This document shows positions 29,809 through 53,425 of a stretch of 64,000 nt of DNA, in pieces. Both the position numbers and the translations under genes were made by a program. Location: positions 21,221,521 to 21,285,520 of the forward strand of contig OX291544.1 of NCBI GenBank assembly GCA_946406115.1, read 5' to 3'. This stretch comes from Apoda limacodes (taxonomy: Eukaryota; Arthropoda; Insecta; Lepidoptera; Limacodidae). Every line of letters starts with the position of its first letter. Position 1 is the stretch's first letter. Below the pieces are notes generated by a model. It was not told where the DNA came from and made no database searches. It saw only the letters and a list, made by a program, of their open reading frames with translations.

Positions 29809-29812
29809 AAGT
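29809..29812. other. target-site duplication, left copy (AAGT)
   Basis: AAGT directly precedes TGTAGTGG of the left LTR and is repeated after the right LTR at 47267-47270. A length of 4 bp is known for Ty3/Gypsy-type integrases and for plant retrozymes. Confidence 0.85.
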
Positions 29813-30479
29813 TGTAGTGGTCCCAAGCCTTTTATAAAGAATTGTAATAATCTGGACCCCACGACACGGTGTTGACATGCTAATTTAAGTTTTAAGAGAG
29901 CAGGTGAATTAAAGATAGAATTTATCAATAATAAATATAAATTTGATTAATCACCTTCGTAATTCATACCGATCGGATACTCCTAATAAATGGATAGAAA
30001 GGAGATCAATGAAGTATGAAGTAAGTGAGGGGCCCGGATGTCCTCACCGGGGTTCGATTAATATGGTTGTACCTACGTCATAAGGCGTAAATCGCAGTGG
30101 GATCCTAAAATCATCAACACAAAGAAAAATAATTACTCGTTAAATACGACCGATTCGTAAAGTAGCAGATAACCAGGAGGTTAAAATATATGGAGAATAT
30201 CGAACGATTATTTTCAGTTAATTGTTATAAATATCGTAGGGTGCGAGAGGGATAGTAGAGTAGGCTCCGCGCCGCTTACGACGAGTCTTCAATGTGTAAA
30301 TTAATCGAAGCTGTATAATCGAGTCACAAAGAAGCGGAGAAACTAGTTCGGCAGGTAAAGAGTTTAGTAGAATCGGTTTACGATTTCGATATGATTGTTC
30401 GATTATTACTATAAAGTAACTGGCCACTAAAATGCGAAGCACGTGGGTACACGTGGAAGTAAAATAAAGAAGAAATTAA

Positions 30480-30708
30480 CTGGCGCCACAATCCCTAGAC
30501 ACGCCACGCGTTCAGGCCGCGTCTATCGGGGGGGAGGGGAGAACGGTTATAAGCGATAGGCGTCAGTTGCGGCACCCTTTTCCATTGTCGACGTGACGAG
30601 AGGCTGGCTGGGTTCAAGGTTCCTGAGGAAGTGGGAAGGACAGGACGCACAAAGATTTGAAGAAATTTAATACCGACGCCGTGCACGTTTCGCCTACATC
30701 AAATCTCA
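30480..30708 (+). promoter_or_regulatory. possible LTR promoter region
   Basis: Locally GC-rich with the arthropod initiator-like TCAGTTG (30563-30569), an upstream TTATAAG (30547-30553) and a downstream CGACGTG (30589-30595). The TATA-like box is too close (about 17 bp) and the DPE-like element is about 3 bp off the usual spacing, so neither is convincing alone. An equivalent block is at 42490-42718 in the right LTR. Confidence 0.25.
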
Positions 30709-32011
30709 GTAAGTGTCTTTTGTGAGAACTGAGGCTAGCAATATCAACTTATTATTGATGGGTTTGTACTATGGGGCTTTGTGAGGGACTTCCTTTATAC
30801 GATGGCGTAAGGACTGTGTAAGGGACCGTGTAAGATGCCACCTTGGATAAAGTGAAGGGTTGGTTGGGGAAAATTGAAAGTGTTTGACTTTTTGGTTGGG
30901 ATTTAGTCCGGGATTTTAGTTGTAAATTTGGGATAGAGAAGAAAGAAACCCTTACTTATTGAGAATGCAGAGGTAATTTGTTGACATTGCTGGCTATGTA
31001 CTCTCTAAGGAAAAGAGATTGCCGATTTCTGTAGGAAATCTAGTGGAGTAAAAGGTTCCTGCCGGGATCGGTGTCTTTTAACATGATGTTGTAAATTTTG
31101 TGATACCTTGTGGGAGGAAAACCCCGTAATTAAGCCCTGATCTGATTAGATAGGAAATCGGCTAAGCTTAGGGTTAAGGCTAGGGTAAATCTTGTGTATT
31201 CCCTTTAGAGCGTGTATGTGTATGAGTTTGGATATCCTCACTGGATAAAACCCTACGCGGGCCCCTGGGCCGTGGTTACTCGCACTGATCTGAGTCGATG
31301 TGAAGGGACCCCCCAAAGGACTTGCTAGGGTAATCCTTGTGTGGCCCTTGCTGTGCATATATATGTTGAGTAGGTGATCCTTGTGTGAACCTTGTCTTGA
31401 ATTCCTATTAAAGGAAACCCTACACGATTTAGTAGGTGCTCATCAAAGTTGTACGACTTTGTTGCATGTAATTCGTTATTATGTTAATGGTATCCATATA
31501 TTCACTATTTATTATCATAACAATCTTAAATTACAATATCGTGCTGCTTTGCGGTATAGTGGCCCCAAAGCGAGCAGACCCTTGGTAGATAGAGGTAGGC
31601 GAGGACGGGGCAGTCACAGTAGGGGTTCCTCAAGCGGGGTCTGGCTTGTTATAAGATTAGAGGAAGATTGGGGCTTGGTGTTAGAGACATACTAGGATAA
31701 TTGCAGGCTTCAGGAATCTAAGGGTGTGAGGGGGCTGATAAAACCTAGATCTGGGTTGGCTCCAATTCCACCCTTCACCGGCGTCGAGTAAGGAAACTGA
31801 ACTGTTAGATTCCGTTTAGGTAATGGGTGGCTAAAATTTAACGTGGGATTTTTAACCCAATCTCCTTAAGGAATCCATAAATAAATAATACCTCCACTCC
31901 ACCCATTGCTGCGACGGATAGATTTGGAAAGCTAAGTATTATTGTGCTCATATTTAAATATTTGTTTTCTGTGTAAAAAATAAATAAACGTAAACCTCAT
32001 ATGTTTTTCAG
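30709..32011 (+). other. possible intron within the LTR
   Basis: Donor TCA|GTAAGTG at 30709 and acceptor ATGTTTTTCAG ending at 32011 are good insect splice signals on the element's sense strand, enclosing 1,303 bp. Splicing would bring the GC-rich leader to within about 210 nt of the hammerhead. Predicted by eye only. Confidence 0.25.
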
Positions 32012-32222
32012 GGCCGCGACATTAATCTAGCGAGTCTAATTTTTAATTAGACTATCTAAGCTTTATTTTATTGCTTTATACTGTTTAAACTATGTTTTGA
32101 CTAAGCCATTTAAGATAAAGATGACTGAACTTCAACATTGACCAAACTTTATTAACAGGCTATGAGGTGACGTTAGTGGGTCAGGATTTGTTTTATTCTT
32201 CACCATGAATCACCCCGTTGAA

Positions 32223-32299
32223 GACGTATTAGTATAATCATACACAATTCTCTACTAACTGATGAGGCTCTGAATTGTTGTATGGAAAGCCGAAACGTT
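32223..32299 (+). ncRNA. type III hammerhead ribozyme, left LTR
   Basis: The invariant core is complete: CTGATGA at 32259-32265 and GAAA at 32292-32295. Stem I is TTAGTA (32229-32234) with TACTAA (32253-32258), six perfect pairs. Stem II is GGCT (32266-32269) with AGCC (32288-32291), four perfect pairs. Stem III is GACGT (32223-32227) with ACGTT (32295-32299), five pairs including one G-U and the A15.1-U16.1 pair. The cleavage triplet is GTA (32226-32228), an allowed NUH site, so cleavage is predicted between 32228 and 32229. Loops I and II are both 18 nt, long enough for the tertiary contacts of natural hammerheads. The 5' and 3' ends leave from stem III (type III), the topology used in plant retrozymes. 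It lies on the same strand as the primer-binding site and polypurine tract. Confidence 0.85.
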
Positions 32300-32308
32300 A
32301 AGTTCTAA

Positions 32309-32365
32309 ACACTCAGAAAGGGCTAACCCTTACTTGATCTGGCTAATGCGCCGGGTCCTGAGTGT
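32309..32365 (+). ncRNA. stem-loop immediately 3' of the hammerhead, left LTR
   Basis: ACACTCAG (32309-32316) pairs perfectly with CTGAGTGT (32358-32365). Inside, AAGGG (32318-32322) and CCCTT (32327-32331) close a CTAA loop. The start is only 9 nt after stem III of the ribozyme. The copy in the right LTR is at 44319-44375. Function unknown. Confidence 0.5.
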
Positions 32366-33899
32366 GGATATGTCTTCCTTACAATCCACCTTAAACATAT
32401 TTATTGTGTGTCAAACTAGGTGTTCTGTCGCCTTAATTACTCTGATAAACAATTCACCACTTAACCATGTGCGTAATCGCACACCTATTTTATTATTTCT
32501 TGTGAACTTAGCTTGCACGGCATATGTTTCGGGCGAGTATAGCTTCTCCGGACTAGCGGCTATTTAAACTTAAGGAGCCTCGGGTTCGAACCGACCGATC
32601 GTAGGTTATAATCAAATAATAACGAGATGGTCCCTTTAGTTCCGTAGTTAGTCATAGTAGTAAGGATAAATACATGGTCGTCTGGTTGTTTGCCACCTCC
32701 GCAGCGTTATAAATGTAGGAGTTGGCGGGGAGCACTACTTACCTATCCTAAAGAACAGTTTAAGGCACGGTGTACGAAGGGGAAAGGTTATCTATTAACT
32801 CAATTATTAAGTGACAGGAAGGCGAAGTCACAAGATAAGCTAGTCCGATGAAACCTATCTACGAGTCTGTCAGAAGTTGGTCGTTATATACTTTCCTTGG
32901 TAAAGGTCCCAAGGCGTTAGTCAGATAATAGGTACGATACATTTGGCAACCGCTTAAGGTCGGACGGTATCCGAGGGCTTTAAAGTTGTTCAAAATCAAG
33001 TTATACATAGTTAAATTTCAATATTCATTCTAGCATTAAGGTAGGAACAGTCTAGTGTATAAGTTCGGCGAACTTAGGCTTCGTTTCGATTTTACAGTAT
33101 TGATTTTTATAAACTTTTATATCCGAGTGTAGATAATCTCCATAGTTCGTAAACATAAACCCAATTTTAGTTCTAATAGCGAAATTCATATTGACAGGGT
33201 CGCGAGATACTAAACCAAAACCGAACCAACGTAAATTAGTCGAAGGAAGGTCGAGTAACACGATTAGACTCTGTACCTGCGCAGAAGACTAAAATGTGAA
33301 CTCTGCGCACCCACGTGACCACGAGACGCCAGCTGGGCACTTCGACGCACAGGCAAATGTATGGAAAGTCTGACCGGTTAGTCTTTAATTGGCCGAAGGG
33401 ATAATTCGGTGGCGGGCCCAATAATTCTGAATAGAACAACTTACGAACCCTTAAGGAATGGTTGTATATGTGAATTTTCCTGGATGATTCCCAGTTAGGG
33501 TTACCCGTAAACGACCTGGAAACTAGGATTGGTAGATTTAGATAGACTTCCATACTAAATCGTCCGCCCTTAGCGCCCTCTATAAGACCTCCCCAATATC
33601 TCCATTATTAGACAGTTAGCTAAGATATCGATCGACCGAGTAATTCCACGATTATTACACAGATGGCGTGAGTTTCAGTGGTAAAATAATAATCATGAAT
33701 GTATGTGGATTTCTGGATACCTACGGTTAGGACTATGTTATAACTTTATTTAAAGGGTAGGCTGTAGATGTATTTCAGGGTTACATTTACTTCTAATTTG
33801 TTAGTTTGTCTTTACGGCGATTCTACATATATTATTATAAGATTAGATTAGAAGAGAAGCTAGTAAGGATAGTGGTAGTCTTTTTATATACTTAGATTG

Positions 33900-34640
33900 C
33901 CTTTGGGGTGGCTTCTCGAATACCATTACGACTTTATAATTTCACTTAGGGGTTGTTAACGGGTTGTCAACAGGCTCTTTATGCAATTACTAAACTTATC
34001 GGTCAGTCTGTGGTGCATTCTTAAGTGTTATTGAGAGGGTTGTGTAATTTACGTAAGGGCCAGGCCGCGAGTATATTCGTTTTTATCTATATATATATAT
34101 TCAATCTGTTAGTTCATCCGTATGGTGACCTTTCATATTACATTACAGTTTTATAACTTCGCTTAAGAGATCGATAGCTAGTCTACTAATAATTTATCTA
34201 TGTACTTAATAGGTCCGCTTGTCTCCCTAATGCCTTATATATGTTGTTATTAGTTCCGACCTTCACTTAAGCGCAAGCTAGAGAACTGGTGACAGGTTAG
34301 TTGTGTAGGTTATAGGTTAATTAAGGGATCAATAGCGTACCTGCTAATAATTTATTTAGTTATTAAATAGGTCTGTCTGTCTCTTAAATGATTTTGTTAT
34401 ATTATAAGTGTATAAATTTAGTTAAGGGGAAGCCAGTGAGCTTATTAGTGGTTAGTACTTTCATATGTCTAAGGGTTCTTCCTTTTAAGGTGATTTTCCT
34501 ACATTACTATGAGGTTACAAGTTTACTTAAGGGCAAGATAACTAGTGTATCGATGGACTACTTACCGTTTAAGAGTTCTCCTTTAAGGCGATTTCATACA
34601 TTACTATAGGATTACGACTTCACTTAAGGGGTATGCGGTC
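33900..34640 (+). repeat. degenerate ~100-bp tandem repeats inside the left LTR
   Basis: The motif ACTTCACTTAAGGGG and variants recurs near 33947, 34157, 34261, 34419, 34521 and 34617, each preceded by a variant of CATACATTACTATAGGATTA. Spacing varies between about 96 and 210 bp. The equivalent set in the right LTR is at 45910-46650. Confidence 0.6.
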
Positions 34641-35259
34641 ATAGTCGTTATAACTTCAAGGCCTATCGTGTTCGAGGGGTAACCGTGTTATTACGAGACA
34701 TGTTCGGAGTTGTAAGGAGGTAGCTAGGCTGGTGAATAGGGTGACTTAGGCTAGGGTACTTCGACTACGTTAGGATAATAAATCGCATATATTTTAATCT
34801 GAAACTCGCATTTAGTAATTTAAATTCTGGTCTAATGCTAATCAGGACTTAGTGGTTCTGCGGTTAAGGATTAGTTATAGGCCATTGCTTTTAATGTAGG
34901 TATAATGTAAAATTAGGGTTTTGATTTTGTTCTTTCACACCTGGGACTGATTGAATCCATACCTCTTAGGATCTGGGGTTATTATCGGTCACAACGAGGG
35001 GTCCAAATAGACGATTACGCCATTAGACGATTACAGCCAAATAATAATATTAATTCTCTGCATAGCTTTCTTTAATAATAACATTAATAACGGTTACAAA
35101 ATATCATTAATGTTTAATAATAATAAAGGCAACAATAATATGTTAGGATTACGTACGCCATCACGTATTCAAATTGGCGACTACGTCAGTATACTCCACG
35201 TGAGTTCAAATAAATAATTTTATTATTTATATTATGTGAAGGGGGGGGTTTCTACATTT

Positions 35260-35277
35260 TGGTGCCGTGACCAGGAT
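35260..35277 (+). promoter_or_regulatory. primer-binding site, probably for tRNA-His
   Basis: TGGTGCCGTGACCAGGAT begins with the TGG that pairs with a tRNA CCA end, three bases (TTT) after the LTR. Its complement ends ...GTCACGGCACCA, which agrees with my recollection of the acceptor stem of eukaryotic tRNA-His (5' GCCGTGA). The tRNA identity is from memory; the position and TGG start are seen directly. Confidence 0.75.
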
Positions 35278-38240
35278 AAGATATAGAACTAAAATAGGCT
35301 TGTAAAAGCCTACATTTTGTTGTCGTACAACGGATGGGAGGTCATTAAAATGGATTTGAGTTGGTGACTGGTGTGACAGAATGGAACCAATAAGCAAGAT
35401 ATAAATCTTGTTTAGAAGGCATTTTGTAGTTGTTTGTTACTTAAGCTTAGTTATAGACACATACTTTAATATAGCATATATGGGAATTGTAGGCCAAGTT
35501 TAGGATAAAACCATGTTAAATTAGTGTAAAAGAATGGTTTTTATTTTTTAGTTAGGTAGTACAGTACATCTATCTAGGTACTAGTATAGTAAGATATATT
35601 CTACGACTTAGGCTTAGATATAGGAAGGCATTACTAGTAATATGTAGACATAAAATTACGGCTAATACGCAAAATTAAAATTACATTTATAGAATGGTAG
35701 GCAGGGGTATGATCTAATAACCTTATTTATAAATACATACTCGTATATCTCAATCATCCGAAACCTAGGGAACGGTATTCGTAAGATAAATCTTACTAGT
35801 CTCGTTCAATCTGAACTTCTATGTGGTAGTACCTATATGCATATTGCCATAACATAGGTTTAAGAAAATGTTTAAAAACTAGATTCGAATAAATTTATTA
35901 TTGGATAGCACTATTCAATAATTATGGACCTTAGCTTAATGTTGTGAGTACGTTTCGAATAAGCTTGTGAGTGTTGGTTTGTACGTATATGTGTGCGTAA
36001 GTAGATGTGGATAAGTATATAAATTCGCAGGTGTTTTATGGAAGGATTCTTGAACTTGTGATTGTCAACTGATAGAGTGGAGGAGTTAGCCGTACTATTT
36101 ATAAAAAAGGGAACCCCCTTATGGACTTTAGTGGCCTGTCGCGAGGCGTATTACCGTATGGACATAGGTTAGAGATCAGTATAGTTGGTGTGGCCTTAAT
36201 GAACTGTCTATATACGTGGAATTATTATTTAGAGGGGGGGGGGGGCACTGTGGAATAAAGGTCTTATATGCTGGGGGAGGGAAAGGACATAACAAAATAA
36301 TGAACATTTAAGAGGGCTCCAACGCACGTATACCTATACCTTACGGGGGTGTAGCGGGAGTCAATAATGTTAGGTTCAGATAGAACTCGTCTTCCAGTAG
36401 CGCAAAGATATTATAGGTAGACATACAACTTAGCGTAAAGGGGGGGAAAATATTTAATTAATCTTACATCACATGCGATATAAAAATTTGATTACAGTAA
36501 TTTTCTAGCTTGTAGTTACTCAGCATGTCCGGAAATAAATTATGTTCTCGCTACTTGTTGATAGTGAGTTATGAATTAAAAAATAGAAAACGAGAAATTA
36601 GGCCGTAATTTTCAAAAAAAAAAAAATTTTTGGTTTGGACGGGAACCGTAAGTCGAATACAGTAATCTGTTTGTCAAAGAAGGTAAGACAGTGGAGTCGA
36701 TTTTAAAACCGAGTAGAAAACTGTAGCTCAAGGTAGAGTGCCGCCTTAAAGTATCACCTTATTATTGATGATTTAGAGTGGGTTCATTTATGTTTAGTAA
36801 ATGCATTGAGAGTCGGGATAACGAGCATTTGGAATGCTAATGCCGAAGTAAGGTCATAAGGTCACTAAGATATTAGCTAAAGTGGGCCTCATCCATCTCG
36901 GTTTTTTATTTTATACTAGGTAACGCCGACTTAGTAAGTTGGGATCATCCCCATGAGCCATTTAGACATAACTGTGTAAATGTATAATTATCGGTTTATA
37001 GGTTTTAGTTAAAAGGTTACTTCAATGTACGAACGTCTAATAACTGTTTCACTTGGCGGTAACGTCTGTTAAGCCCTTAGACTCGGTGAACTTCTTCCAA
37101 CGAGAAGATTCATGACTGGTTGAAGGTAATCTTAACAAAGTAAACAGTAGATGTTAAAACGACTATATGTACTTTGTGAGTTGTTAGTTTAGTAATATGC
37201 TTTTGTAAAAGGAAAATTTATAACAAATGGTATAAATTGGGGAAGAAAGGATGTCCGCTCGGGCGGGGGTTTGAACTCGGGGTTTCCCGGGGTCTTGGGG
37301 CGAACGTGAGGTGTTTGGCCGACGGAACTGTCTGAGTCGACTCTGTGCGATCGAATGTAAACGTTAGGTAGAGACCTTTGGTTAGAGCATCTTTTATAGA
37401 GTTGTTGTTACCGTTCACGGGCTATTAGATTCAAATTTTAGGGTGCTTTCGGCTCCTGTTTTGTTTGCCAAATTATATTACATTTTGATTGTCGATGAAT
37501 ATTTTATTACTAGGCGGACCGGAAGTGTCAAACGGTATTAACCTATTGGGATACCATTTATGAAGGTGATAGATTGACGGTGTGGAGATACTCGGGTGTA
37601 AACCGGAATTGCACTTACAATGTATATAAATATGTACATCTCTGATTAGGAAATTTAACATACTTAAAGGTGAGATAGGATAATGGCAGGTATAAGGTGG
37701 GGTTCATGTCGGCTGTGCCTGGTAACGCGTTCCGTTTTGAACTAAATAGGTTATTGTTAATAGGTATTATATGTTCAGAGGGTTCTGTCGAGTAGACGAT
37801 ATGTAGCAACTGAGAAATGAGGTTAATGTCGAGGTTAAACCCGTTGGCGTAGGTTAGGGACCGGTTTTGTTAGGGTAGTCATGTTAAGGGCAGTTAGATA
37901 TAAAATGTACATTATGAGAGTCCCCTCTCCACAGGGTGCCACAGGATAAATGGTTGCGTTGTTAGGGGAGGGGTCTACATGATTTATTAAACTGCGATAA
38001 CGTTTATTCAGAATCAGGATTCGCATGAAAATATATACATAAATTAGGGTTAGTGTAGGATGAGGAGTGAGCTAGACGGTGAATAGATACTATTACTTGC
38101 CATGTTGATCTGAAATTTAAACAAAATTATTAAACCCAGCCGAGTTGGACGAGGTAATTATTTAATTTTGAACGAGGAACTAGTAAAGATTTTGGATTTT
38201 TATACATGATCAGTGTAACCCCTGAGATTTTTGCCGTGTG
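35278..38240. other. internal non-coding region of the giant element, leader part
   Basis: No retroviral-type motif in six frames. It contains long G runs (twelve G at 36234-36245, seven at 36440-36447) and short, motif-free minus-strand frames (37218-37418, 37473-37661, 37615-37809, 37835-38026). It may act as packaging or structural RNA; that is inference. Confidence 0.6.
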
Positions 38241-38245
38241 AGTTG

Positions 38246-38281
38246 CAGGGGGTCGTAATGTTTCGGCAGGTACGATCCCTG
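38246..38281 (+). ncRNA. 36-nt hairpin with TTTCG core, copy 1
   Basis: CAGGG (38246-38250) pairs with CCCTG (38277-38281), and TCGT with ACGA extends the stem inward. The loop side carries TGTTTCGGCAGG. It recurs at 40463-40499, with a related but unpaired version at 38545-38580. Confidence 0.5.
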
Positions 38282-38544
38282 AGTGACCGCGGGCGGTGCA
38301 TGTCTATGTGTGTGTATACATATCAGTATGCAGACATGTGTATATGTGTCGGAGTTGAGGTCGGGCCCTGCCTTAATGGTGGGAGAGTCAGGTCCTTAAC
38401 TGAAAAAGCAAAAGGCGTTATGCTGGGGATGTGTTTAAGTCATCGGAAAAGAAAAAAAAAAATTTGGTTAGTTGTTAGATACATCAATGAAAGGTTTTTG
38501 GATACGTGGGTGTGGCAGCCCTTACAAATTTGCCTTGTGGGATT

Positions 38545-38580
38545 CAGGGAGGTTTTAATGTTTCGGCAAATGCTGTTTTG
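38545..38580 (+). repeat. 36-nt hairpin, degenerate copy 2
   Basis: Shares CAGGGAGGT..TAATGTTTCGGCA and a following GGATCGCTTCC with copy 1, but its right arm no longer matches CCCTG. The sequences downstream of copies 1 and 2 (TATGTGTGT..ATACATA..., GAGTTGAGGTC / GTGGAAGTCAGAC) are also related, so a unit of about 300 bp is duplicated. Confidence 0.45.
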
Positions 38581-38869
38581 ATGGATCGCTTCCGGTGTAT
38601 GTTTGTATAAGTGTGTGTAGGTATACATACATAAGTATATGTCGTTAGTGGAAGTCAGACTTAACCTGAATGGTGGGTGAGTAGTTAAGGGGAGGAGGGA
38701 GATATTTGGGGTATGGGGTTAGGCCGCTCTAGTATCAGCATTATTACACAAGGTTCGAAATTTCACGACCGGTTCTTATAGTTGCTGATAACAATTTAAT
38801 ATTTGTTTCTTAATATCATTAAATGAACAACCCTCTAACATTAACGCCATATTTAATCTACTATAACTA

Positions 38870-40560
38870 TCACGACGAGCGGAAGTTGAGTGAGGCCCTT
38901 GGTCCTTAATCGAAGCATAGCCATCATAACAAGCCTAGATTGAGTGAGGCCCTTGGTCCTTAACCGAAGCATGTCCGTCATATCCGTTCTAATTACCTAC
39001 GGCTGGTAGTGGGCAAACTTAACTGTTTGCTTCCGAACGTCATCGAATGGACAAACTCAACTGTTTGCGTCCAAACGTCATCGCCACCTTATAGCTACTA
39101 TATCTATCATAGCTACCTACACCTAAAAAGGGACAAACTTAACTGTTTATTCCTGAATATCATCAAATGGACAAACTCAACTGTTTGCGTCCTAACGTCA
39201 TCACCATATTCAAACTACAATATCTATCACAATTACCTACGGCTAAAAATGGACAAACTCAACTGTTTGCTTCCGAATGTCATCAAATGGACAAACTGAA
39301 CTGTTTGTTTCCAAACGTCGTCGCCATATTCAAACTACTATGTCTATCACAATTACCTACGACTAAAAATGGACAAACTAGACTGTTTGCTTCCGAATGT
39401 CATAAAATGGACAAACTCATCTGGTTGCTTTCGAACATCGTCTAAGGGACAAACTTAACTGTTTATTCCTGAATATCATCAAATGGACAAACTCAACTGT
39501 TTGCGTCCTAACGTCATCACCATATTCAAACTACTATATCTATCACAATTACCTACGGCTAAAAAAATGTACAAACTCAACTGTTTGCTTCCGAATGTCA
39601 TCAAATGGACAAACTCAACTGTTTGTTTCCGAACGTCATCAAATGGACAAACTCAACTGTTTGCGTCCAAACATAATCGCCATATTGAAACTACTATATC
39701 TATCATGACGAGCCGAGGTTGAGTGAGGCCCTTGGTCCTTAATCGAAGCATATACATTGTAACGAGCCTAGATTGAGTGAGGCCCTTGGTCCTTAACCGA
39801 AGCATATCCATCATGATTACCTACGACTAATAATGGACGAACTCAACTGTTTGTTTCCAAACGTCGTTGCCATATTCAGACTGCAATATATATCATAATT
39901 ACCTACATCTAATAATGGACAAACTGAACTGTTTGGTTCCAAACGTCGTCGCCATATTCAAACTACTATATCTATCATGATTACCTACATCTAATAATTG
40001 ACAAACTCAACTGTTTGTTTCCAAACATCGTCGACATATTCAAACTACTATATCTATCATAATTACCTACATCTAAGAATGGACAAACTCAACTGTTTGT
40101 TTTCAAACGTCGTCGCCATATTCAAACTACTATATCTATCATAATTACCTACATCTAATAATGAACAAACTCAACTGTTTGTTTCCAAACATCATCGCCA
40201 TATTTAAACTACTATAACTATCCCGACAAGCCGAGGTTGAGAGAGGCCTTTGGTCCTTAATCGAAGCATATTCATCATAACAAGCCTAGATTAAGTGAGG
40301 CCCTTGGTCCTTAACCGAAGCATTTCCGTCGTACCCGTCCTGATTATCTACGACTAATAATGGAAAACCTCAACTGTTTGCTTCCAATCATATTTCCCTT
40401 CTTCGATCTACTATATTCTTCATAACTATCCATTATATCTGGTGTTTCCTATCGTAGCGTTGCAGGGGACTGACCTTGTTTCGACAGGGTGGGTCCCTGA
40501 GTAGTCGCTGGCTGAGGTTGAGTGAGGCCAGTGGTCCTTAACTGAAGCTGTGTTCGTCAT
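38870..40560 (+). repeat. composite tandem array of hairpin units (interior of giant element)
   Basis: Two unit types alternate. Unit Y is GGACAAACTCAACTGTTTG followed by (C/T)TTCC(G/A)AACGTC; I count about 19 copies between 39010 and 40385. CAAAC and GTTTG in each can pair around a 6-nt loop. Y units come either 35-45 bp apart or about 82 bp apart with a CATATTCAAACTACTATATC spacer. Unit X is GTTGAGTGAGGCCCTTGGTC followed by CTTAA(T/C)CGAAGCAT, present in pairs at 38880-38985, 39715-39805 and 40230-40325 and once at 40512-40550. The plus-strand frames through here (39009-39299, 39167-39445, 39483-39722) are only translations of the repeat. Confidence 0.85.
40463..40499 (+). ncRNA. 36-37-nt hairpin with TTTCG core, copy 3
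   Basis: CAGGG (40463-40467) pairs with CCCTG (40495-40499). GAC/GTC-type pairs and an inner CCTTGT-TTCG-ACAGG hairpin are possible. It is followed by AGTAGTCGCTGGC, comparable to AGTGACCGCGGGC after copy 1. Confidence 0.5.
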
Positions 40561-41340
40561 AGTTATTTGCTGCATTTGAGTAAAGCACGATCTTAAGCAC
40601 TATAATTTCTTTTTAATCTCTTACGTTCTATTTCGAGTAATTATTATGACGTGTCATTCATTATTATTAGGAGGCTCTTAGGTGATCATCGTAGCTTATT
40701 GGGTACAGCCCTTTAAACCAGTTTAGACTAGTGAGGAACATGATGAGACAACTAGTACCACGCTAAACCAGGTTTGATGAGTCATCGTCTTGGTACGGAA
40801 CTATAGTATGAGATTCATTAATATCTAAATGGAAGCAGACCTTGAACGATGAGATAACCTTGGAGTTGAGGGTGATTATAGGATGGGAGATGTCCATTAA
40901 GTTGATTAGTTAGAAATCAGTAGTGTCGAGAGACTGATTTAAGCTTTAGGTGCTGTTGCTAGTTTTAATAGGGTGAACGTATGATTATGTTTTAGGGTGA
41001 ACTAAGTTGATTTTACGACGGGGGAATGGATGGAAAACCGTCGATAATATAAGCGAGAGGGAATTGGAGGAAATGAAAGATAAGGCTAGGACTGAATGGG
41101 TAAAGTGCAGTTAAAGGAAGGGTGATCCTTATGAGAAGACACGTTGAAAGGAACAATTCCGGTCAGGGAATTTGATGAAAGCGCGTAGAACTGATAACTC
41201 AAGTGTGAGGGTGAAGTGGATTAAGAAGTTTTCATTGTTGTATAAGGGGCCTTGTGTATTAGTCGCGATACCGCTCTCGGAGGAGGTTACGGGAAATTTC
41301 GATGCGATTTCTTTTTTCTGACGGCAGGGCTAGGATTAAG
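40561..41340. other. internal non-coding region, 3' part
   Basis: Purine-rich on the plus strand (for example 41030-41180). No ORF with motifs and no recognised regulatory site. Confidence 0.45.
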
Positions 41341-41344
41341 GTAA

Positions 41345-41655
41345 GGATAATATTAGGTTTATTAGGTTCAGGGCAATTAGGGTTAGGTAAACATGAGGTT
41401 TATAGGGTTTAGGTACACATAAAATTTATTAGGTTTAGGTAAACATGAGGATTATTAGGCTTAGGTTACAGATATGTTTAGGAGGTCTAGGTTAACATGA
41501 GGTTTATAGTGTTTAGGTTAACATTAGGGTTTATTAGGTTTGGGTGGACATGAGGGTTATAAGGTTTAGGTTACGGTTATGTTTGGGAAGTCCAGGTCAA
41601 CATGAGGGTTGTTGGATTTAGGTTTATGTAGGGGTTTTTAGGTTAAGGTTAGCGT
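41345..41655 (+). repeat. TTAGG-like degenerate tandem array upstream of the polypurine tract
   Basis: About nine variants of TTAGGTAAACATGAGGTTTA with a period near 35 bp, rich in TTAGG and TTTAGG. TTAGG is the canonical insect telomere repeat, but here it sits within a longer unit. Confidence 0.6.
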
Positions 41656-41813
41656 TATTGCTGAATTAAGGTTAGATTAAGTCTCGAGTAATTTATATGT
41701 CATTACTGAACTAGGTTCGAGTTGTAAGTCGAGGTCTTAAAACTTAGGTGTAGAGATCCAGTGGTTAATTAAGAAACAAGTCACAACTGATAAGTGTACA
41801 TTTATGACTTGTT

Positions 41814-41821
41814 GGGGAGGA
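41814..41821 (+). promoter_or_regulatory. polypurine tract
   Basis: GGGGAGGA lies directly before the right LTR (one T between it and TGTAG at 41823), as expected for the plus-strand DNA primer of an LTR retroelement. Confidence 0.7.
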
Positions 41822-44232
41822 TTGTAGTGGTCCCAAGCCTTTTATAAAGAATTGTAATAATCTGGACCCCACGACACGGTGTTGACATGCTAATTTAAGT
41901 TTTAAGAGAGCAGGTGAATTAAAGATAGAATTTATCAATAATAAATATAAATTTGATTAATCACCTTCGTAATTCATACCGATCGGATACTCCTAATAAA
42001 TGGATAGAAAGGAGATCAATGAAGTATGAAGTAAGTGAGGGGCCCGGATGTCCTCACCGGGGTTCGATTAATATGGTTGTACCTACGTCATAAGGCGTAA
42101 ATCGCAGTGGGATCCTAAAATCATCAACACAAAGAAAAATAATTACTCGTTAAATACGACCGATTCGTAAAGTAGCAGATAACCAGGAGGTTAAAATATA
42201 TGGAGAATATCGAACGATTATTTTCAGTTAATTGTTATAAATATCGTAGGGTGCGAGAGGGATAGTAGAGTAGGCTCCGCGCCGCTTACGACGAGTCTTC
42301 AATGTGTAAATTAATCGAAGCTGTATAATCGAGTCACAAAGAAGCGGAGAAACTAGTTCGGCAGGTAAAGAGTTTAGTAGAATCGGTTTACGATTTCGAT
42401 ATGATTGTTCGATTATTACTATAAAGTAACTGGCCACTAAAATGCGAAGCACGTGGGTACACGTGGAAGTAAAATAAAGAAGAAATTAACTGGCGCCACA
42501 ATCCCTAGACACGCCACGCGTTCAGGCCGCGTCTATCGGGGGGGAGGGGAGAACGGTTATAAGCGATAGGCGTCAGTTGCGGCACCCTTTTCCATTGTCG
42601 ACGTGACGAGAGGCTGGCTGGGTTCAAGGTTCCTGAGGAAGTGGGAAGGACAGGACGCACAAAGATTTGAAGAAATTTAATACCGACGCCGTGCACGTTT
42701 CGCCTACATCAAATCTCAGTAAGTGTCTTTTGTGAGAACTGAGGCTAGCAATATCAACTTATTATTGATGGGTTTGTACTATGGGGCTTTGTGAGGGACT
42801 TCCTTTATACGATGGCGTAAGGACTGTGTAAGGGACCGTGTAAGATGCCACCTTGGATAAAGTGAAGGGTTGGTTGGGGAAAATTGAAAGTGTTTGACTT
42901 TTTGGTTGGGATTTAGTCCGGGATTTTAGTTGTAAATTTGGGATAGAGAAGAAAGAAACCCTTACTTATTGAGAATGCAGAGGTAATTTGTTGACATTGC
43001 TGGCTATGTACTCTCTAAGGAAAAGAGATTGCCGATTTCTGTAGGAAATCTAGTGGAGTAAAAGGTTCCTGCCGGGATCGGTGTCTTTTAACATGATGTT
43101 GTAAATTTTGTGATACCTTGTGGGAGGAAAACCCCGTAATTAAGCCCTGATCTGATTAGATAGGAAATCGGCTAAGCTTAGGGTTAAGGCTAGGGTAAAT
43201 CTTGTGTATTCCCTTTAGAGCGTGTATGTGTATGAGTTTGGATATCCTCACTGGATAAAACCCTACGCGGGCCCCTGGGCCGTGGTTACTCGCACTGATC
43301 TGAGTCGATGTGAAGGGACCCCCCAAAGGACTTGCTAGGGTAATCCTTGTGTGGCCCTTGCTGTGCATATATATGTTGAGTAGGTGATCCTTGTGTGAAC
43401 CTTGTCTTGAATTCCTATTAAAGGAAACCCTACACGATTTAGTAGGTGCTCATCAAAGTTGTACGACTTTGTTGCATGTAATTCGTTATTATGTTAATGG
43501 TATCCATATATTCACTATTTATTATCATAACAATCTTAAATTACAATATCGTGCTGCTTTGCGGTATAGTGGCCCCAAAGCGAGCAGACCCTTGGTAGAT
43601 AGAGGTAGGCGAGGACGGGGCAGTCACAGTAGGGGTTCCTCAAGCGGGGTCTGGCTTGTTATAAGATTAGAGGAAGATTGGGGCTTGGTGTTAGAGACAT
43701 ACTAGGATAATTGCAGGCTTCAGGAATCTAAGGGTGTGAGGGGGCTGATAAAACCTAGATCTGGGTTGGCTCCAATTCCACCCTTCACCGGCGTCGAGTA
43801 AGGAAACTGAACTGTTAGATTCCGTTTAGGTAATGGGTGGCTAAAATTTAACGTGGGATTTTTAACCCAATCTCCTTAAGGAATCCATAAATAAATAATA
43901 CCTCCACTCCACCCATTGCTGCGACGGATAGATTTGGAAAGCTAAGTATTATTGTGCTCATATTTAAATATTTGTTTTCTGTGTAAAAAATAAATAAACG
44001 TAAACCTCATATGTTTTTCAGGGCCGCGACATTAATCTAGCGAGTCTAATTTTTAATTAGACTATCTAAGCTTTATTTTATTGCTTTATACTGTTTAAAC
44101 TATGTTTTGACTAAGCCATTTAAGATAAAGATGACTGAACTTCAACATTGACCAAACTTTATTAACAGGCTATGAGGTGACGTTAGTGGGTCAGGATTTG
44201 TTTTATTCTTCACCATGAATCACCCCGTTGAA

Positions 44233-44309
44233 GACGTATTAGTATAATCATACACAATTCTCTACTAACTGATGAGGCTCTGAATTGTTGTATGGAAAGC
44301 CGAAACGTT
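44233..44309 (+). ncRNA. type III hammerhead ribozyme, right LTR
   Basis: Identical to the left-LTR copy: core CTGATGA at 44269-44275, GAAA at 44302-44305, predicted cleavage between 44238 and 44239. Cleavage at both copies of a full-length transcript would free an RNA of 12,010 nt with 5'-OH and 2',3'-cyclic phosphate ends. Such ends can be joined into a circle by RtcB-type ligases; this last step is known from retrozymes and inferred here. Confidence 0.85.
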
Positions 44310-44318
44310 AAGTTCTAA

Positions 44319-44375
44319 ACACTCAGAAAGGGCTAACCCTTACTTGATCTGGCTAATGCGCCGGGTCCTGAGTGT
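44319..44375 (+). ncRNA. stem-loop 3' of the hammerhead, right LTR
   Basis: Same pairing as 32309-32365 (ACACTCAG with CTGAGTGT, inner AAGGG/CCCTT). Confidence 0.5.
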
Positions 44376-45909
44376 GGATATGTCTTCCTTACAATCCACC
44401 TTAAACATATTTATTGTGTGTCAAACTAGGTGTTCTGTCGCCTTAATTACTCTGATAAACAATTCACCACTTAACCATGTGCGTAATCGCACACCTATTT
44501 TATTATTTCTTGTGAACTTAGCTTGCACGGCATATGTTTCGGGCGAGTATAGCTTCTCCGGACTAGCGGCTATTTAAACTTAAGGAGCCTCGGGTTCGAA
44601 CCGACCGATCGTAGGTTATAATCAAATAATAACGAGATGGTCCCTTTAGTTCCGTAGTTAGTCATAGTAGTAAGGATAAATACATGGTCGTCTGGTTGTT
44701 TGCCACCTCCGCAGCGTTATAAATGTAGGAGTTGGCGGGGAGCACTACTTACCTATCCTAAAGAACAGTTTAAGGCACGGTGTACGAAGGGGAAAGGTTA
44801 TCTATTAACTCAATTATTAAGTGACAGGAAGGCGAAGTCACAAGATAAGCTAGTCCGATGAAACCTATCTACGAGTCTGTCAGAAGTTGGTCGTTATATA
44901 CTTTCCTTGGTAAAGGTCCCAAGGCGTTAGTCAGATAATAGGTACGATACATTTGGCAACCGCTTAAGGTCGGACGGTATCCGAGGGCTTTAAAGTTGTT
45001 CAAAATCAAGTTATACATAGTTAAATTTCAATATTCATTCTAGCATTAAGGTAGGAACAGTCTAGTGTATAAGTTCGGCGAACTTAGGCTTCGTTTCGAT
45101 TTTACAGTATTGATTTTTATAAACTTTTATATCCGAGTGTAGATAATCTCCATAGTTCGTAAACATAAACCCAATTTTAGTTCTAATAGCGAAATTCATA
45201 TTGACAGGGTCGCGAGATACTAAACCAAAACCGAACCAACGTAAATTAGTCGAAGGAAGGTCGAGTAACACGATTAGACTCTGTACCTGCGCAGAAGACT
45301 AAAATGTGAACTCTGCGCACCCACGTGACCACGAGACGCCAGCTGGGCACTTCGACGCACAGGCAAATGTATGGAAAGTCTGACCGGTTAGTCTTTAATT
45401 GGCCGAAGGGATAATTCGGTGGCGGGCCCAATAATTCTGAATAGAACAACTTACGAACCCTTAAGGAATGGTTGTATATGTGAATTTTCCTGGATGATTC
45501 CCAGTTAGGGTTACCCGTAAACGACCTGGAAACTAGGATTGGTAGATTTAGATAGACTTCCATACTAAATCGTCCGCCCTTAGCGCCCTCTATAAGACCT
45601 CCCCAATATCTCCATTATTAGACAGTTAGCTAAGATATCGATCGACCGAGTAATTCCACGATTATTACACAGATGGCGTGAGTTTCAGTGGTAAAATAAT
45701 AATCATGAATGTATGTGGATTTCTGGATACCTACGGTTAGGACTATGTTATAACTTTATTTAAAGGGTAGGCTGTAGATGTATTTCAGGGTTACATTTAC
45801 TTCTAATTTGTTAGTTTGTCTTTACGGCGATTCTACATATATTATTATAAGATTAGATTAGAAGAGAAGCTAGTAAGGATAGTGGTAGTCTTTTTATATA
45901 CTTAGATTG

Positions 45910-46650
45910 CCTTTGGGGTGGCTTCTCGAATACCATTACGACTTTATAATTTCACTTAGGGGTTGTTAACGGGTTGTCAACAGGCTCTTTATGCAATTAC
46001 TAAACTTATCGGTCAGTCTGTGGTGCATTCTTAAGTGTTATTGAGAGGGTTGTGTAATTTACGTAAGGGCCAGGCCGCGAGTATATTCGTTTTTATCTAT
46101 ATATATATATTCAATCTGTTAGTTCATCCGTATGGTGACCTTTCATATTACATTACAGTTTTATAACTTCGCTTAAGAGATCGATAGCTAGTCTACTAAT
46201 AATTTATCTATGTACTTAATAGGTCCGCTTGTCTCCCTAATGCCTTATATATGTTGTTATTAGTTCCGACCTTCACTTAAGCGCAAGCTAGAGAACTGGT
46301 GACAGGTTAGTTGTGTAGGTTATAGGTTAATTAAGGGATCAATAGCGTACCTGCTAATAATTTATTTAGTTATTAAATAGGTCTGTCTGTCTCTTAAATG
46401 ATTTTGTTATATTATAAGTGTATAAATTTAGTTAAGGGGAAGCCAGTGAGCTTATTAGTGGTTAGTACTTTCATATGTCTAAGGGTTCTTCCTTTTAAGG
46501 TGATTTTCCTACATTACTATGAGGTTACAAGTTTACTTAAGGGCAAGATAACTAGTGTATCGATGGACTACTTACCGTTTAAGAGTTCTCCTTTAAGGCG
46601 ATTTCATACATTACTATAGGATTACGACTTCACTTAAGGGGTATGCGGTC
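45910..46650 (+). repeat. degenerate ~100-bp tandem repeats inside the right LTR
   Basis: Copy of the tandem set at 33900-34640. Confidence 0.6.
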
Positions 46651-47266
46651 ATAGTCGTTATAACTTCAAGGCCTATCGTGTTCGAGGGGTAACCGTGTTA
46701 TTACGAGACATGTTCGGAGTTGTAAGGAGGTAGCTAGGCTGGTGAATAGGGTGACTTAGGCTAGGGTACTTCGACTACGTTAGGATAATAAATCGCATAT
46801 ATTTTAATCTGAAACTCGCATTTAGTAATTTAAATTCTGGTCTAATGCTAATCAGGACTTAGTGGTTCTGCGGTTAAGGATTAGTTATAGGCCATTGCTT
46901 TTAATGTAGGTATAATGTAAAATTAGGGTTTTGATTTTGTTCTTTCACACCTGGGACTGATTGAATCCATACCTCTTAGGATCTGGGGTTATTATCGGTC
47001 ACAACGAGGGGTCCAAATAGACGATTACGCCATTAGACGATTACAGCCAAATAATAATATTAATTCTCTGCATAGCTTTCTTTAATAATAACATTAATAA
47101 CGGTTACAAAATATCATTAATGTTTAATAATAATAAAGGCAACAATAATATGTTAGGATTACGTACGCCATCACGTATTCAAATTGGCGACTACGTCAGT
47201 ATACTCCACGTGAGTTCAAATAAATAATTTTATTATTTATATTATGTGAAGGGGGGGGTTTCTACA

Positions 47267-47335
47267 AAGTCCTGGCTCGAGGTTAATCTTTTGACTGCAT
47301 CTTTGATATGAAAGTATTTATTTATATTGATGATA
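47267..47335 (+). mobile_element. 3' fragment of SINE family A, target of the giant element
   Basis: AAGTCCTGGCTCGAGGTTAA and the TTTGATATGAAAGTATTTAT tail match the SINEs at 5481-5550 and 59281-59347. With the left flank AGGATCAAGT (29803-29812), the empty site would read AGGATCAAGTCCTGG, one base from the B-box region AGGTTCAAGTCCTGG. The first four bases are the right copy of the target duplication. Confidence 0.65.
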
Positions 47336-52526: not shown

Positions 52527-53425
52527 TACACACCGGCACAATTAGCGGAACACAAAAAAAGGATTTGAACGAATGGCAGCAGGTTCTCTGTACTGATGAG
52601 TGCAGAGTTCTTTTAAAACAGATCGATGGGAGACAGCGAATATGGAGACGCAAAGGAGAACGCCACATACAGTCTAATTTTGAACACACAGTGGCTTATG
52701 GTGGCGGCTCGATTATGGTTTGGGGAGGGATATGTTTCGGAGCTCGCACGGAGTTAGTGATAGTCACAGGAGGGACCATGACAGCAGATCGATACATCAG
52801 AGACATTTTAGAAGAACACGTTGTACCATTTGCCCCATTTATTGGTGATGATTTTATTCTAATGCAAGATAGTGCTCGTGCTCATAGTGCACAATCGGTA
52901 CAGGCATATCTGAGCCACGTAGGTATACCGGTGATGCAGTGGCCAGCAAATTCCCCCGATATGAATCCGATAGAGCATGTCTGGGACTTGCTAAAAAGAA
53001 GGGTTAAATCCAGAATGCCACCCCCCAACAATCTGAATGAACTTGGAAACGCAATACTTGAGGAGTGGGAGCGGTTGCCTCAAGAAATCATCGATAACAT
53101 AATCTGTAGCATGCCCAGACGAATGGAAACCGTAATCAGAGCAAGAGGGGGAAACACTCGTTATTAATTATGCTTTAATTTTATTGTTAAATCATTTAAT
53201 GCTTTTTTTTTTAATTTTTTATGATGGCTCATAATCATCTAAAAATTTCACTTATTTCAAATTTCTTTATTTTTCAATAAAAAATAACGAAGACTTTTCA
53301 AAGTCGTTGTTAAAAGATGTTAATCAATTTGTTATTTTGTGTCTAATTACATTTTCGTCAAATATATGTGTTATTATCTCATAGTCTCACTTTTTTTTCT
53401 GTTCCGCTAATTGTGCCGGTGTGTA
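52527..53425 (+). mobile_element. Tc1-like transposon, 899 bp, ends intact
   Basis: Left end TACACACCGGCACAATTAGC then GGAAC; the right end is its reverse complement (53401-53425). TA dinucleotides flank both sides (52525-52526 and 53426-53427), the Tc1/mariner target duplication. The interior is almost filled by a transposase fragment. The element is short for an autonomous Tc1 (about 1.3-1.6 kb) because the coding sequence for the N-terminal DNA-binding domain is missing. Confidence 0.88.
52565..53167 (+). CDS. Tc1-type transposase, catalytic domain only
   Basis: The 200-residue frame starts within a few bases of the left inverted repeat. It carries the DDE triad: D11 (LCTDECR), D102 (LMQDSARAHSA) and E137 (NSPDMNPIEHVWD). 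The spacing of 34 residues between D102 and E137 is the D34E signature of Tc1. The GGGSIMVWGGIC block and the C-terminal region (to RGGNTRY) are intact. The paired helix-turn-helix domain that binds the inverted repeats, normally about the first 110-120 residues, is absent, so the protein cannot bind its ends specifically. The start at ATG 52573 or at the first codon of the frame is uncertain. No internal stop or frameshift, so the deletion may be recent. Confidence 0.85.
   Translation: MNEWQQVLCTDECRVLLKQIDGRQRIWRRKGERHIQSNFEHTVAYGGGSIMVWGGICFGARTELVIVTGGTMTADRYIRDILEEHVVPFAPFIGDDFILMQDSARAHSAQSVQAYLSHVGIPVMQWPANSPDMNPIEHVWDLLKRRVKSRMPPPNNLNELGNAILEEWERLPQEIIDNIICSMPRRMETVIRARGGNTRY

Follow-up and report, generated by a model that had tools for sequence, protein, structure and literature searches.

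In the moth Apoda limacodes, both long terminal repeats (LTRs) of a very large LTR retrotransposon contain, on the sense strand, a real and conserved type III hammerhead ribozyme fold. The element spans 17,454 bp on the + strand of a 64,000-nucleotide stretch of genomic DNA (contig OX291544.1 of assembly GCA_946406115.1, positions 21,221,521 to 21,285,520), hereafter the window. Taken together, the sequence comparisons below make it likely that a working type III hammerhead, its loops Watson–Crick paired, resides in the LTRs of a giant Ty3/gypsy family, and that the window copy arose recently as a derivative without protein genes and was moved by coding relatives. Because the motif is conserved, we consider it very likely that the predicted hammerhead cleaves.

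The two 77-nt hammerhead stretches are identical to each other (Table 1) and contain a CUGANGA and GAAA core, an NUH triplet and three helices in type III order. Stem III has 5 bp (GACGT/ACGTT, with a G.U pair outermost) and the cleavage triplet is GTA; the 6-bp stem I (TTAGTA/TACTAA) is followed by CTGATGA, and the 4-bp stem II (GGCT/AGCC) by GAAA. A first-pass annotation of this DNA, made from the letters alone, had claimed a complete fold with no core deviation in both LTRs, and the sequence bears this out. Its sense-strand placement is likewise upheld by the primer-binding-site-like sequence and the polypurine tract, and its spacing of 12,010 nt between the predicted cuts (from 32229 to 44238) is correct. 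It had also judged the coincidence of core bases and helices unlikely by chance. Across the whole window, our loosest descriptor matched the two LTR copies only. Order-1 Markov sequence simulated from the window composition, 2,400 Mb in all, contained no hit at the observed stem lengths, 1 hit with slightly looser (5,4,5) stems and 28 with the loosest (4,3,4) stems, in agreement with that judgement.

The loop-loop complementarity described here, like the protein-coding relatives described below, is additional to the first-pass annotation. Loops 1 and 2 are 18 nt each and can form 12 complementary pairs with one bulged U. The stability of this duplex (-13.2 kcal/mol) was equalled by 4 of 5,000 shuffled loop pairs, and the 12-bp complementarity is largely kept across copies. 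According to one report, about 40% of hammerheads probably have a pseudoknot between stems I and II, and in type III this is common where the two stems differ by two base pairs (PMC3088659). The stems of 6 and 4 bp found here fit that difference.

To place the fold in its genomic setting, we used the copies of the LTR in the host assembly (800 Mb, 31 contigs). A 251-bp LTR piece had at least 40 matches at 99–100% identity (40 scored of 498 candidates), and the 40 listed form 20 pairs lying 11.4–17.3 kb apart. In six elements, the two LTRs are 99.87–100% identical over the parts compared, and these copies are therefore recent. The pattern ACTGATGAGN{8,38}CGAAACGTT matched the genome 389 times and its reversed control not once; among the matches listed (C1–C6), all but two carry the family loop 2 or a close variant. 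Matches at C1:3736286 (L062, excluded from the comparisons) and C1:3743101 belong to a different repeat, an unrelated inverted repeat that lacks the helices. A second pattern, which brought in older copies, matched 92 places (control 0), and a third, which takes a base other than T at position N7 of the core, matched 31 (control 1); the third-pattern match at C11:6914280 looks like chance. The LTRs themselves appear mosaic: between 31300 and 33900, comparison with L001–L028 shows stretches of 0–1% and of 15–30% difference in alternation, which suggests recombination between subfamilies.

The distribution of changes among these copies follows the hammerhead. In 28 young copies, all found by similarity to this piece, the 77-mer is invariant; their LTRs differ by 3–9% from those of the window over aligned parts. 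We compared 67 copies (L001–L028 and L047–L086 without L062), counting changes present in at least two of them and excluding the 18 pattern-fixed positions. Such changes occur at 6 of the 11 loop positions that are unpaired, as against 3 of the 48 that are paired or in the core (p = 0.0007). A broader alignment, A2, has 26 rows: the window, 10 of 20 loci from the set including L062, and 15 of the 20 second-pattern loci that were fetched (of 92, unusual ones first); haplotype repeats, L062, five disrupted loci, 20 further fetched loci and ten third-pattern loci were left out. With N7 counted as free, A2 has shared changes at 8 of 13 free positions and at 5 of the 64 others (p = 6e-5); once positions fixed by the second pattern are removed, the figures are 7 of 11 and 5 of 45 (p = 8e-4). 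The sole shared core change in A2 is at N7, where 8 of the 26 rows have C and 2 have A; position 7 of CUGANGA is free in the hammerhead consensus. An LTR pair 13 kb apart on C12, one of the third-pattern finds, has C7 at both places. In stem II, pair 47/66 reads U.G in 12, U-A in 9 and C-G in 2 of 24 distinct rows and is unpaired in 1. At the constrained positions, the only shared change to break a pair is G1->T (two rows, outermost pair of stem III), and the others give standard pairs, single rows excepted. Overall, 96.3% of A2 cells are paired, compared with 21–47% in slid structures.

The fold also reaches beyond the young copies. Four loci (L087, L088, L107 and L108) have a core that reads CTGAAGA and are so diverged that, over 701 bp, each shares with the window just a single blastn-alignable stretch, 188–249 bp around the ribozyme, a stretch that contains the pattern-fixed letters used to find them; they align to one another over more than to the window. 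L088 has kept all pairs of stems I–III except the outermost of stem III, and the other three have further broken pairs, as old copies would be expected to show. Among ten third-pattern loci fetched, L109 and L112 are whole. The persistence of the fold in old, strongly diverged relatives suggests that it matters to the copying of the element.

The window element has two LTRs, a target-site duplication, a primer-binding-site-like sequence and a polypurine tract, the features of an LTR retrotransposon (Table 1). Repeat identity covers 5,445 bases at an offset of 12,010. We take the + strand to be the sense strand because the primer-binding-site-like sequence follows the 5' LTR and the purine tract precedes the 3' LTR. 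The former may match the 3' end of tRNA-His. A tandem duplication or assembly artefact is ruled out by the target duplications, the primer-binding site, the polypurine tract and the 20 LTR-like pairs in the genome. Inside the element are nested tandem arrays (38837–40385 and 41376–41624) with units of 38, 82, 120 and 26/52 bp, and related repeats occur in other copies.

Table 1. Features of the hammerhead-bearing LTR element, in window coordinates
Feature	Position	Strand	Description	Basis
Type III hammerhead fold, 5' LTR copy	32223..32299	+	predicted cut 32228/32229	sequence, descriptor scan, conservation
Type III hammerhead fold, 3' LTR copy	44233..44309	+	predicted cut 44238/44239	sequence, descriptor scan, conservation
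Loop 1 segment CATACACAATTC	32239..32250	+	complementary to loop 2 segment; duplex -13.2 kcal/mol	
Loop 2 segment GAATTGTTGTATG	32272..32284	+	complementary to loop 1 segment; one bulged U	
5' LTR	29813..35256	+	5,444 bp, TGTAG...CTACA	identical to 41823-47266
3' LTR	41823..47266	+	5,444 bp, TGTAG...CTACA	identical to 29813-35256
Target-site duplication AAGT, left	29809..29812	.	flanks 5' LTR	
Target-site duplication AAGT, right	47267..47270	.	flanks 3' LTR	
Primer-binding-site-like TGGTGCCGTGACCAGGAT	35260..35277	+	after 5' LTR	sequence
Polypurine tract GGGGAGGA	41814..41821	+	directly before 3' LTR	
Internal region	35257..41822	+	6,566 bp; no open reading frame of 150 aa or more; tandem arrays at 38991-40222 and 41376-41624	

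Other members of the family encode proteins. We fetched 12 internal stretches from 11 longer copies. Stop-to-stop frames of 120 aa are absent from L037 and L038, and each of the other 10 stretches contains at least one. A Pfam scan covered seven open reading frames (ORFs), with the long ORFs of L031, L033 and L034 outside it. L032 has a weak protease match followed by reverse transcriptase, RNase H, H2C2 and integrase domains, the Ty3/gypsy order; L029 has a protease match, reverse transcriptase and the start of RNase H, and the adjoining L030 has RNase H and integrase. L036 has integrase only, and two of the seven scanned ORFs had no domain match. The protease matches in coding copies are weak, under the Pfam cut-off with E about 0.001. 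Both LTRs of the elements holding L032 and L029/L030 carry the identical 77-mer. The coding copy on C1 measures 23,006 bp, with LTRs of 5,736 bp and the duplication AATT; both elements in which the two ends were read, this one and the window copy (AAGT), thus have a 4-bp target-site duplication. The C1 copy has the primer-binding-like site TGTTGCCGTTACCAGGAT (L029:348-365), with two differences from that of the window copy. The window internal region aligns piecewise to all 11 longer copies, and the pol-ORF parts of L029 and L032 have no match to it among the alignments listed (at least 250 bp); on this ground we regard the window copy as a derivative that lacks the coding block.

Several observations touch on the surroundings of the element and its family. 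L035 (C5:6935600-6945599) contains a 523-aa ORF with a PRE_C2HC domain, which may mark the insertion of a different element into one of the family's LTR elements. Within the window, positions 139–1737 hold a 532-aa ORF with the reverse transcriptase domain RVT_1 (E 8e-38), which belongs to another retroelement, and positions 52565–53167 a 200-aa ORF with a DDE_3 transposase domain. A search of phage records with the window gave no match. Elsewhere in the host genome, 29 moricin-domain matches (best E 1.1e-7) cluster within about 190 kb at C19:8446758-8636641. Moricins are a lepidopteran family, and these matches make a moth or butterfly host likely; 14 control genomes had no match, a comparison of little weight because those among them that are named are prokaryotes.

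A number of results weigh against a working hammerhead. The covariance-model test that the first-pass annotation had set for its own claim went against it: an Rfam scan at the gathering threshold found no match, the Rfam type III model RF00008 scored 17.6 bits (E 0.42, searching just 351 bases; gathering 48.5), and across the host genome RF00008 had no match among 68 scored of 90,236 candidates. The nested minimum-energy structure is not a hammerhead; it has -16 kcal/mol, against -5.9 for the bare hammerhead, and 35 of 200 shuffles were at least as stable. All copies were found either through similarity to this LTR piece or through patterns in which part of the motif is fixed. Measured against the commonest pair, no change in A2 is two-sided, and the pair count did not exceed its shuffle control, so the evidence is one of conservation by class of position, not of covariation. 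The fold also decays. It is disrupted in 5 of the 20 second-pattern loci, by a 3-base insertion in L090 and by loss of the 5' half or of parts in L095, L096, L098 and L099, and two second-pattern loci (L104 and L105) have a core change; 6 of the ten third-pattern loci have at least one broken pair, and in L114 and L116 the fold is lost.

We accept the fold despite the negative covariance-model test because we judge the comparison of copies to outweigh it. The gathering cut-off of RF00008 is a curators' threshold and no defining trait of a ribozyme, and this apparently loop-paired type III hammerhead is one that Rfam scoring misses. The competing hairpin was set aside as a disproof, since it consists of stem III and the loop 1-loop 2 helix and is one part of a possible pseudoknot; as the nested fold holds both of these, all four helices may coexist as a putative pseudoknot.

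What conservation means is a separate matter. In ten tabulated young copies, a block of the LTR from about 32200 to 32750 is nearly unchanged, so another function could reside there; the LTRs are mosaic, and in the 67 copies variability drops only marginally from the near flanks (39 of 223 positions) to the paired and core positions (3 of 48; p = 0.05). It is nevertheless improbable that a promoter, packaging or RNA-binding signal is what is being conserved and that the hammerhead resemblance is incidental, given that the changes are placed as in a hammerhead (at N7 within the core, in the free loops and, in the stems, mostly so as to preserve pairs), that simulated sequence does not yield the motif at its observed stem lengths, and that the alignable part shrinks to the neighbourhood of the motif in the four diverged copies. 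Still less credible is the idea that the resemblance arose by chance and spread when a single element recently multiplied: the 40 first-listed copies are indeed young, being 99–100% identical here, and the LTR pairs of six elements are nearly identical, but the fold is also present in old, diverged subfamilies.

How an active hammerhead would serve the element is less clear-cut. One possibility, which we put forward tentatively, is that a coding animal Ty3/gypsy lineage replicates at least partly via a hammerhead-cut RNA circle with one permuted LTR and sheds large non-coding riders. In what we regard as the most likely course, a transcript running through both LTRs would be cut at both ribozymes. 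The unit-length product, 12,010 nt for the window copy, would contain a single permuted LTR and end in a 5'-OH and a 2',3'-cyclic phosphate, and a host RNA ligase could close it into a circle. Reverse transcription primed by a tRNA on the unit-length RNA would restore two LTRs, as proposed for plant retrozymes, and the window copy would be moved in trans by coding relatives that bear the same LTR ribozyme. By analogy with those elements, the RNA could be ligated and copied as a circle. We rate two cuts with circle formation at slightly less than an even prospect. An active hammerhead might instead cut once per transcript, from within U3 or U5, and so trim the 3' end, remove a capped leader or free the element from read-through host transcripts, with no circle; this, too, is plausible while falling short of probable. 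The ribozyme lies at base 2411 of the 5,444-bp LTR, a position compatible with placement inside or outside R, and AATAAA occurs both before and after it; outside R, in U3 or U5, it would be transcribed only once and would therefore trim one end, a point that weighs against circle formation. Coding copies also need a usable mRNA, which loss of the cap would presumably harm. Against a single cut stands the fact that plant retrozymes of the same layout form circles (PMC4918200), and otherwise nothing specific.

The closest known systems are the plant LTR retrozymes, which share with the family a type III hammerhead in each LTR, a 4-bp target-site duplication, a primer-binding site, a polypurine tract and a link to Ty3/gypsy and, as far as the window copy is concerned, a non-coding internal region (PMC4918200). 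Those elements are short and non-coding, with LTRs of about 350 bp, 600–1000 bp between ribozymes and a tRNA-Met primer site, and their similarity to gypsy elements is described as limited to the primer-binding site, the polypurine tract and the LTR ends, with the mobilizer inferred (PMC4918200). By comparison, the two elements measured here have LTRs of 5.4 and 5.7 kb and total lengths of 17.5 and 23.0 kb, and the 5,444-bp LTR of the window copy and the 12,010 bp between its ribozymes lie well outside the plant range. The primer site (TGGTGCCGTGACCAGGAT) appears to differ, the host is a moth, and the ribozyme is present in coding gypsy members as well; coding capacity varies among copies, the window copy having no 150-aa ORF and other copies of its LTR family encoding pol.

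Among animals, Penelope-like elements offer one parallel, although they are not LTR elements with integrase. They carry a hammerhead in the terminal repeats of a coding retroelement, which in their case is a type I minimal motif in a Penelope-type element (PMC6155905, PMC7761336). Metazoan retrozymes, another instance of hammerhead-bearing mobile elements in animals, have type I hammerheads in tandem units of about 170–400 nt with no LTR, primer-binding site or polypurine tract (PMC7229834), and a 2024 review describes them as non-LTR and type I (PMC11722881). The first-pass annotation was right that LTR hammerheads are known from short plant retrozymes, but its account of animals was incomplete, as type III hammerheads have been reported in termites, Drosophila pseudoobscura and other dipterans, with no LTR placement given in the accessible text (PMC7936874). 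These, together with those of termite and toad hepatitis delta virus (HDV)-like RNAs, resemble the present motif in type III topology, base-paired loops and, in part, insect hosts (PMC7936874). The toad and termite hammerheads have a 5-bp stem I with an internal loop and an extra hairpin, a 6-bp stem II and a loop contact of about 4 bp, and the termite genome copies appear there as isolated motifs with no LTR element described (PMC7936874); here, the stems are of 6 and 4 bp and the 18-nt loops are complementary over 12 bp. Among the papers listed by a literature search that did not extend to preprints or to most subscription journals, none reports an animal LTR retrotransposon with a hammerhead. 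The existence of such elements in insects may be known to others, since a review, with reference to a previous paper and to work in preparation, mentions insect elements that contain type III hammerheads (PMC7761336).

In the literature searched, LTR retrozymes are reported from plants only. The presence of the ribozyme in coding gypsy copies makes the role of an LTR hammerhead testable in one insect, and bears on the origin of type III hammerheads in insect genomes and in HDV-like insect RNAs. If the proposed cycle is true, this moth family would be a coding counterpart of the plant retrozymes and would reveal an RNA route to LTR retrotransposition without terminal R repeats.

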